Shown: one piece after another, positions 2,170 to 3,292 of the stretch
How the letters are laid out: every line of letters begins with the position of its first letter
Numbering within the stretch: position 1 is the stretch's first letter
DNA from: an uncultured Pelagibacteraceae bacterium
GTDB lineage: Bacteria > Pseudomonadota > Alphaproteobacteria > Pelagibacterales > Pelagibacteraceae
Assembly: GCA_902599335.1 (NCBI GenBank)
Contig: CACKFA010000001.1
Coordinates: 62,001-126,000 of the forward strand
Length of the DNA stretch: 64,000 nucleotides
Direction of reading: 5' to 3'
Made by a program: the position numbers and the translations under genes
The notes under the pieces: generated by a model
Told to the model about the DNA's origin: nothing
The model's input: the letters and a program-made list of their open reading frames with translations, nothing else
The model's database searches: none

Positions 2170-2199
2170 TTGACATAACTTATAGAAAAAAATAAAAAT
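2170..2199 (+). promoter_or_regulatory. Consensus-like promoter of the polybasic peptide gene
   Basis: A perfect -35 hexamer TTGACA at 2170-2175 is followed after 17 bases by an A/T -10 region (TAAAAAT, 2193-2199). A full TTGACA at this spacing upstream of a clear Shine-Dalgarno suggests a strong promoter. The predicted start near 2205 would place the inverted repeat at 2202-2232 at the very 5' end of the mRNA. Confidence 0.55.
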
Positions 2200-2201
2200 A
2201 T

Positions 2202-2232
2202 GTTAACAACGAATCAATTTGATTCGTTTAAC
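2202..2232 (+). promoter_or_regulatory. Inverted repeat / 5' UTR hairpin upstream of the polybasic peptide gene
   Basis: AACGAATCAA and TTGATTCGTT (2208-2228) are exact reverse complements around one central T. An outer GTTAA/TTAAC pair (2202-2206 with 2228-2232) can extend the stem through a bulge. It sits between the promoter and the Shine-Dalgarno GGGAG at 2240-2244. It could be an operator for a dimeric regulator or an mRNA hairpin affecting stability or translation. Confidence 0.5.
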
Positions 2233-2250
2233 TAAAAAAGGGAGCTAAAG

Positions 2251-2343
2251 ATGCCTAAGAAAAGAAAAAAAGCGGCAAAGAAAACTAAGAAAAAAGCTAA
2301 GAAAAAAGCTAAGAAAAAAGCAAAAAAAAGAAGAAGAAAATAG
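2251..2343 (+). CDS. 30-residue Lys/Arg-rich polybasic peptide
   Basis: This ATG-to-TAG frame is too short for the ORF track. It encodes 30 residues of almost only K, R and A: it begins MPKKRKKAAKK, continues with KKKA repeats and ends in RRRK. A GGGAG ribosome-binding site lies six bases before the ATG, a TTGACA promoter lies upstream and a GC-rich terminator follows, so it is a complete monocistronic unit. The composition resembles histone-H1-like tails, which suggests binding of DNA or RNA. No family is recognised. It converges on carD, whose product carries a similar A/K tail. The coding sequence contains a perfect 12-base tandem repeat. Confidence 0.75.
   Translation: MPKKRKKAAKKTKKKAKKKAKKKAKKRRRK
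2285..2320 (+). repeat. Three perfect copies of a 12-base tandem repeat
   Basis: The unit CTAAGAAAAAAG occurs three times in a row inside the polybasic peptide gene, each copy encoding one A/T-K-K-K step. An exact in-frame repeat could expand or contract without breaking the frame, changing the length of the basic tract. Confidence 0.85.
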
Positions 2344-2361
2344 TAACTTAGTATTCTTTAC

Positions 2362-2406
2362 AAAAAACGCTTCTCATTACAGTAGTGTGTGAGAGGCGTT
2401 TTTTTT
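2362..2406. terminator. Bidirectional rho-independent terminator
   Basis: AACGCTTCTCA pairs with TGAGAGGCGTT (one G-T pair), flanked by an A-run on the left and a T-run on the right. It can therefore terminate the polybasic peptide transcript on plus and the helicase-TerB-fdxA-carD operon on minus. The T-run touches the carD stop codon. It is one of only three GC-rich terminators noticed in the window. Confidence 0.85.
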
Positions 2407-3292
2407 ACTCGTCAATTGGTTCGTCGTTATCAGAAATTGGCTCGTCTACAGGTAGTTCACTAGTTGGCGTTTTTGCAACTGTTACTGGTTGAGGCTGCCC
2501 ACCTAAATTTCTTTTTAGTGCTTTATCCAATTTTTTTTGAGTATCTTCTAACGATACATTCAAAACAATCTGAAATTCAGACAAAATTCTTTCATAAGCT
2601 TTTTCAAATAATTGTCTTTCACTATAAGACTGATCAACCATAAGGTCATCACCCTTGTTTAAATCTCTGACAACCTCAGCTAATTCATATATTTTTCCAG
2701 AAGATATTTTTGCTTCATATTCTTGCGCTCTTCGACTCCACATTGATCTTTTAATTTTTGGTTTACTTTTTAAAATTGAAATACACTTGTTCACTTGATT
2801 AATGGTTGCTAACGGCCGTAAGTGAGACTGCTTGTTTACAGGGACCATTCCGTTCGCCTTGTCTTTTTCAAATTTAATAACATAAGTTTCAACATCAATT
2901 CCACCAATATTGATCTTTTTAAATTCAGTAATTTGCCCTACCCCATGCTTTGGATAAACAACATGATCTTTAATTTTGTATTCTCTTTTTTCGGTTTCTT
3001 GTTTTTTAACTTTTTTTATTTCAGGTTTAACTTCATTTGTTTTTGAAATCCTTAAATTATCTACTTTAGGTTCAGCTGTGGTTTCTGTAATTTTAACAGC
3101 TTTTTTTGTTTTAGTTAATTTAGGTGTAACTTTTTTAGCAACTTTTTTGATTTTTTTTGAAATTATTTTTTTAGCTTTTTTAGCTTTTTTAGCTTTTACA
3201 ACTTTCTTTTTAGAAACTTTTTTTTTCACTTTTTTGTCTGTTTTGCCTTTAAAGATTTTCTTTAAAATATTTTTCGTACTTATTTTGCTCAT
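2405..3292 (-). CDS. carD: CarD-family RNA polymerase-binding regulator with a histone-H1-like N-terminal tail
   Basis: The CarD/CdnL core begins at about residue 97 with [17 protein letters not shown], the Tudor-like RNA polymerase-binding module. A helical domain follows ([35 protein letters not shown]). Such proteins stabilise open promoter complexes. The first ~90 residues are an extended K/A-rich tail ([10 protein letters not shown] and similar), and the last ~25 are acidic. I chose the ATG at 3292 (MSKISTKN) over the track's 3334, which adds 14 residues inside fdxA; even so the gene overlaps the fdxA 3' end by 44 bases. It is last in the minus-strand operon and ends in the bidirectional terminator. 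Confidence 0.85.

Follow-up and report, generated by a model that had tools for sequence, protein, structure and literature searches.

Small basic ribosomal proteins (bTHX, bS22, and bL37) are known in other phyla. Among H1-like proteins, the length of Hc2 varies through in-frame repeat elements (PMC2848022), and peptides made of KPAA repeats have been shown to bind DNA in vitro (PMC9239181). GcrA is a cell-cycle activator of alphaproteobacteria, and in relatives of SAR11 methylation at GANTC sets the timing of cell-cycle genes. The promoter motif relevant here was described in Caulobacter, where TGATTCG (more broadly YGAKTCK) was proposed as the extended methylated-GANTC motif for activation by GcrA, with GcrA peaks counted within −40 to +40 (PMC7987155). 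Below, these systems are compared with a locus identified in a 64,000-nucleotide stretch of the genome of an uncultured Pelagibacteraceae bacterium (the window; contig CACKFA010000001.1, positions 62,001 to 126,000).

Organization of the transcription unit

The preliminary description of this locus listed a complete transcription unit comprising a promoter, a 10-bp inverted repeat, GGGAG, ATG, and a terminator. All of these parts are present (Table 1), and conservation excludes their occurrence by chance; window statistics alone are insufficient for this, with one promoter match found and 1.4 expected in shuffled sequences. TTGACAT and AGGGAGCTAAAG-ATG were invariant across 38 aligned relatives, and every other SAR11 genus examined had TTGACA or TTGACT as its −35 element. 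The terminator stems of other genera differ in sequence with pairing kept. In the window, the terminator hairpin occupies 2366 to 2400 and the T-run 2399 to 2406, the latter abutting the stop codon of the convergent CarD-like gene; the hairpin was missed by the terminator scan, for which its loop is too long. The predicted transcript folds more stably than shuffled sequences (z = −4.4), and Rfam identified only tRNAs in the window.

Table 1. Features of the locus, in window coordinates
Feature	Position	Strand	Remarks
−35 element TTGACA	2170..2175	+	TTGACAT invariant in 38 congeneric loci
−10 region TAAAAAT	2193..2199	+	Weak; promoter match 10/12; position inferred
Predicted TSS	near 2206	+	Approximate position
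Inverted repeat, perfect 10-bp (2208-2217/2219-2228)	2208..2228	+	9-bp hairpin at predicted mRNA 5′ end
CGAATCA (TGATTCG on − strand), extended GANTC	2210..2216	−	Predicted CcrM methylation and GcrA site, ~+5
Second TGATTCG, inverted	2220..2226	+	Doubles as 3′ arm of 5′-terminal RNA hairpin
Shine-Dalgarno GGGAG	2240..2244	+	Inside invariant AGGGAGCTAAAG
ORF, polybasic 30-aa peptide MPKKRKKAAKKTKKKAKKKAKKKAKKRRRK	2251..2343	+	ATG at 2251, stop at 2341-2343
Post-stop element CTTAGTATTCTTT	2347..2359	+	Conserved; near-complement of CDS segment AAAGAAAACTAAG; lineage-specific
Intrinsic terminator, AACGCTTCTCA / TGAGAGGCGTT plus T-run	2366..2406	+	Probably bidirectional
CarD/CdnL-like gene	2405..3289	−	Convergent; lysine-rich N-terminal tail; syntenic anchor

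The post-stop element is predicted to pair with its near-complement in the coding sequence and is conserved in part of the genus only. The N-terminal tail of the SAR11 CarD-like protein is lysine/alanine rich and extends for ∼80 to 90 residues; such a tail is partly present in some other alphaproteobacterial CarD proteins. Two other identities for the locus were considered and rejected. A regulatory leader peptide would require a downstream gene on the same strand, and here the terminator is followed by a convergent gene. None of the four lesser Pelagibacter RNA motifs of Meyer et al. 2009 was found at the locus.

Conservation of the reading frame

The 30-codon ORF is a real gene. A DNA search of relatives returned 30 loci, and a homologous ORF lay behind the same AGGGAGCTAAAG-ATG in 28; one of the remaining two begins within the match at a contig end (L029) and the other is an unrelated lysine-rich hit (L030). 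Exact copies of the 15-mer AGGGAGCTAAAGATG were found in 165 of 297 genomes from the order, each time as a single copy and always in this genus (approximately 165 of 198 genomes), and the reversed AGGGAGCTAAAGATG used as a control had no match among the genomes listed. Five congeneric genomes without AGGGAGCTAAAGATG were checked. Four were also without a detectable CarD gene, making an assembly gap likely, and in the fifth the gene is present, but its ribosome site differs at one base.

All 39 distinct coding sequences were in frame and encoded 20 to 35 amino acids, with length changes in whole codons only. Across 12 disjoint pairs of equal length, 23 synonymous and 8 nonsynonymous differences were counted (pN/pS 0.08; p = 2e−11). 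The frame is thus under strong purifying selection within the genus, and the synonymous/nonsynonymous comparison proposed in the preliminary description came out in favor of the gene. The promoter, Shine-Dalgarno sequence, and terminator are conserved along with the frame. The arrangement of AAG and AAA codons also keeps A-runs short (mean longest run, 7.2 versus 8.4 to 9.1 in shuffles; 0/500), which is consistent with selection against slippage when the message is translated.

The product had also been called abundant, which codon usage does not show. AAG is in excess (29% versus 11%), but EF-Tu and sampled ribosomal proteins reach 13% when pooled. The AAG excess goes with A-run avoidance and is absent from highly expressed SAR11 genes; the bias reflects avoidance of long A-runs, and the argument from codon usage to high expression was rejected.

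Gene callers usually apply a lower limit of 90 nt; 32 of the 39 distinct homologues fall below 30 amino acids and would be missed. As judged from its sequence, digestion with trypsin would leave fragments of three residues or fewer; the abundance of AlgP is likewise suspected to be underestimated owing to trypsin (PMC9239181). With such short copies and a peptide that trypsin hides from ordinary proteomics, the gene has possibly been missed twice, and its absence from annotation and proteomics would not be evidence that it is absent. Three short ORFs without names were reported in a structured-RNA survey of the SAR11 strain HIMB5, and this gene may already have been noticed as one of them. A primary-transcriptome paper on the Red Sea does not mention the locus in its section on SAR11.

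Distribution across SAR11

Using the CarD gene as a syntenic anchor, a convergent K/R-rich ORF was identified in 16 of 16 loci that reached far enough, from ten other SAR11 genera. As judged by position, every inspectable genus of SAR11 (Pelagibacterales), i.e., 11 genera in two families, has a homologue at this site in convergent orientation to the CarD gene, and the gene appears to be order-wide. Because profile searches fail on such a composition, synteny and the common leader are the basis for orthology in the distant genera. When the peptide or an 84-amino-acid form from family f2 served as the query in profile and protein searches, composition filters removed low-complexity hits, even those to known orthologues.

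The predicted proteins are 21 to 24 amino acids long in genera g8 to g10, 31 in g6, 36 to 38 in g5, and 50 to 58 in g7. Overall, family f1 spans 20 to 58 amino acids, and f2 encodes KAAPKKKK-repeat proteins of 80 to 91 amino acids, which read MEELKIIFAKAKKKAKKKAAPKKRKAAPKKKK and match H1-like proteins in composition. The short form resembles a reduced version of such a protein, and change may have run from long to short.

Beyond SAR11, 27 CarD loci from the class were examined and none had such a neighbor; other genomes of the class yielded scattered look-alikes only. One, in a Xanthobacteraceae metagenome-assembled genome (L121:1944-2024), is a 26-amino-acid look-alike or distant relative with GAGG upstream and a hairpin downstream. 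Another is a KAAPKKKKK-repeat protein of 58 amino acids (75 from an upstream GTG) on the minus strand of an AT-rich alphaproteobacterium (GC, 27%; L122:1347-1574), located between the aconitase and ccmA genes. Both lie in other gene contexts and may have arisen by convergence.

Leader sequence and promoter motif

The inverted repeat consists of two inverted copies of TGATTCG, an exact match to the GcrA motif near the predicted TSS of a σ70-type promoter. In 22 leaders from 11 genera, CGAATC was found 39 to 41 nt from the start of the −35 element, i.e., at ∼+5 of the predicted TSS. One CGAATCA copy is present in all 11 genera, and the second copy, in the 3′ arm, is variable. Both GcrA and a member of the N6-methylase family were encoded in eight of eight SAR11 genomes tested. 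In the genome to which the window belongs, the methylase matched Caulobacter CcrM in the PDB over nearly its full length (E value, 7e−140), and the GcrA copy also had a PDB match to GcrA.

GANTC is underrepresented in one SAR11 genome (G062; 1,737 sites observed versus 3,145 expected from base composition), with several other permutations of its bases even rarer. Of the 12 to 19 copies of TGATTCG per SAR11 genome, 42 to 47% lie between genes, compared with a base rate of 4%. In two genera the intergenic counts were 6 of 14 and 5 of 12 (gene boundaries in these two genomes were set by simple ORF calling), and in both TGATTCG ranked first of 420 7-mers of the same composition for intergenic location; the genome of the window had 9 of 19. 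A doubled TGATTCG site, allowing one mismatch, was identified in that genome at this gene only. Promoter copies elsewhere precede recA, clpP, and clpX, with GANTC positions conserved between genera, and ftsK in one genome (G061). A further copy lies between an acyl/propionyl-CoA synthetase gene and proteorhodopsin. Sites in G062 and G061 (loci L128 to L246), together with loci L247 to L265 of the window's own genome, delineate a putative SAR11 GcrA/CcrM regulon.

A published survey counts few conserved P. ubique orthologues as high-probability GcrA targets (PMC7987155), which speaks against control by GcrA. That survey could have missed this locus, since an unannotated gene could not be included and the motif model came from other organisms. 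No ctrA orthologue was found in Pelagibacter in a 2010 comparative study (PMC2877005).

The preliminary description took the inverted repeat for a 5′ mRNA hairpin. This part was upheld, as RNA pairing is kept, but the repeat also matches a doubled GcrA/CcrM promoter motif. In g8 to g10 the 3′ arm reads GATTTG, losing GANTC and keeping pairing through a G-U pair; the leaders of g5 to g7 form new stems of 8 to 10 bp, and in one congeneric locus (L026) an A-U pair is changed to G-C in both arms. Because pairing is retained in the GATTTG arms and through other stems in three genera, an RNA constraint beyond GcrA alone is indicated. Two constraints thus probably act on the leader, namely, a methylation/GcrA site in the 5′ arm and a 5′-terminal hairpin. 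The leaders of g5, g7, and f2 also contain CUCC or CCUC, which could base pair with the ribosome site and hint at translational control there.

These same observations could mean that the repeat is an RNA element only, a 5′-terminal stem-loop that stabilizes the mRNA, perhaps with feedback of the peptide on its leader and with no part for GcrA or CcrM. Such an element would account for a predicted 5′-end hairpin in every genus, for stems that have G-U pairs or are altered yet paired where the 3′ arm has changed, and for the pairable CUCC/CCUC segments; moreover, half-sites spaced 4 or 5 nt apart are atypical of an operator bound by a dimer. However, CGAATCA in the 5′ arm is invariant although pairing alone would permit change, and it is the GcrA motif that is promoter-enriched at other genes that have no hairpins. 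A purely RNA-based role is considered rather unlikely.

In the f2 leaders (L072 to L077, ∼30 to 110 nt upstream of the ORF), a CTAACCTCTAACTAAAC segment is conserved, and a CCC/GGG mini-hairpin stands beside the Shine-Dalgarno site (CGC/GCG in L074 and L075). Their CCUC could pair across the start region, making translational control possible.

Nature of the peptide

More than 20 of the 30 residues of MPKKRKKAAKKTKKKAKKKAKKKAKKRRRK are Lys or Arg, none is acidic, and the peptide lacks a hydrophobic core. It consists of K/A(/P)-rich low-complexity basic repeats, whose number varies in frame to give 20 to 35 amino acids in the genus and up to 91 in the order. No histone-like family was matched in Pfam or NCBIfam up to an E value of 10, a search weakened by composition correction. 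On the basis of the repeat composition, the in-frame variation in repeat number, and the KAAP orthologues, the peptide probably belongs to the H1-like proteins in a shortened form and binds nucleic acids. The H1-like peptide put forward in the preliminary description is thus supported in its composition and by KAAP-repeat orthologues in other genera, and binding to DNA or RNA would follow from its charge. Short K/A-rich sequences can, as a caveat to homology, arise convergently.

A ribosome- or rRNA-associated micropeptide of the bTHX/bS22/bL37 type, missed by SAR11 annotation, would share the length of 20 to 35 amino acids, the highly basic composition with a MAKRRKK start, and the strong Shine-Dalgarno sequence of its own. 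Its length, however, differs by 15 codons within the genus and 4-fold across the order. The peptide is a K/A repeat, where a nonrepetitive rRNA-binding sequence of near-constant length would be looked for. A PDB search, including solved ribosomal chains, identified no match, although low-complexity sequence weakens such searches. The promoter motif is, in addition, common to recA, clpP, clpX, and ftsK, and because these are recombination, cell-cycle-protease, and division genes, a chromosomal role is favored over a ribosomal one, which we consider quite improbable.

Polybasic peptides also bind RNA, a point against a role confined to the chromosome. The product could accordingly be a polycation with several functions whose main partner is RNA or polyphosphate rather than the chromosome, in the way that AlgP acts on granules. 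Charge is not specific for DNA, AlgP links polyphosphate granules and DNA (PMC9239181), and Hc2 binds RNA well (PMC2848022); sharing a promoter motif with chromosome-related genes is what argues the other way, and we give this possibility little credence.

Proposed function and comparison with known systems

On balance, we think it probable that the gene encodes a nucleoid-binding, H1-like micropeptide, monocistronic and SAR11-wide, with transcription coupled to replication through GcrA/CcrM. RNA polymerase with σ70 and GcrA would fire the promoter once CcrM has methylated the GANTC near +5, so that peptide synthesis would be tied to the passing of the replication fork. The 5′ end of the mRNA is expected a few nucleotides upstream of ACGAATCA, where the hairpin could protect the transcript, and translation would start from the strong Shine-Dalgarno site. 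With more than 20 positive charges in 30 residues, the disordered peptide would bind DNA, and possibly RNA, by charge and help to compact the nucleoid. What the sequences show is the gene and its conservation; that it is expressed, that its product binds DNA, and that methylation controls it are inferences.

More tentatively, the peptide of 20 to 35 residues could be a minimal bacterial histone, an H1-type tail alone, with adenine methylation in the wake of the replication fork acting as the gate for its synthesis; we see this as a possibility with the chances somewhat against it. If true, the ocean's most abundant heterotrophs would have a replication-coupled DNA-packaging peptide with a logic comparable to that of S-phase histones. 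A DNA-packaging role would also offer a candidate answer to how the chromosome is compacted in very small, AT-rich SAR11 cells. The promoter analysis provides a testable sketch of a SAR11 GcrA/CcrM regulon that includes this gene, recA, clpP, clpX, and ftsK.

Like bTHX, bS22, and bL37, the peptide is polybasic and 20 to 35 amino acids long; unlike them, it has a repeat sequence and a strongly variable length, and the PDB search, weakened by low complexity, linked it to none of them. The promoter resembles the GcrA/CcrM σ70 promoters of Caulobacter in having TGATTCG within −40 to +40 (PMC7987155), in a genome that encodes both regulators, at a position fixed across SAR11 orthologues. It differs in that the site is a palindromic pair overlapping an RNA hairpin, at a gene not described as a GcrA target, with methylation and binding predicted. 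Unlike chlamydial Hc2, Bordetella BpH1, and Pseudomonas AlgP and PhaF, the peptide of this SAR11 genus is only 20 to 35 amino acids long and has no folded N-terminal domain; Pfam models gave no match in a search weakened by composition correction, and its DNA binding is predicted. It shares with Hc2, BpH1, and the C-terminal domain of AlgP/PhaF the Lys/Ala(/Pro) repeats, a repeat part free of acidic residues, and a repeat number that varies in frame (PMC2848022, PMC9239181).
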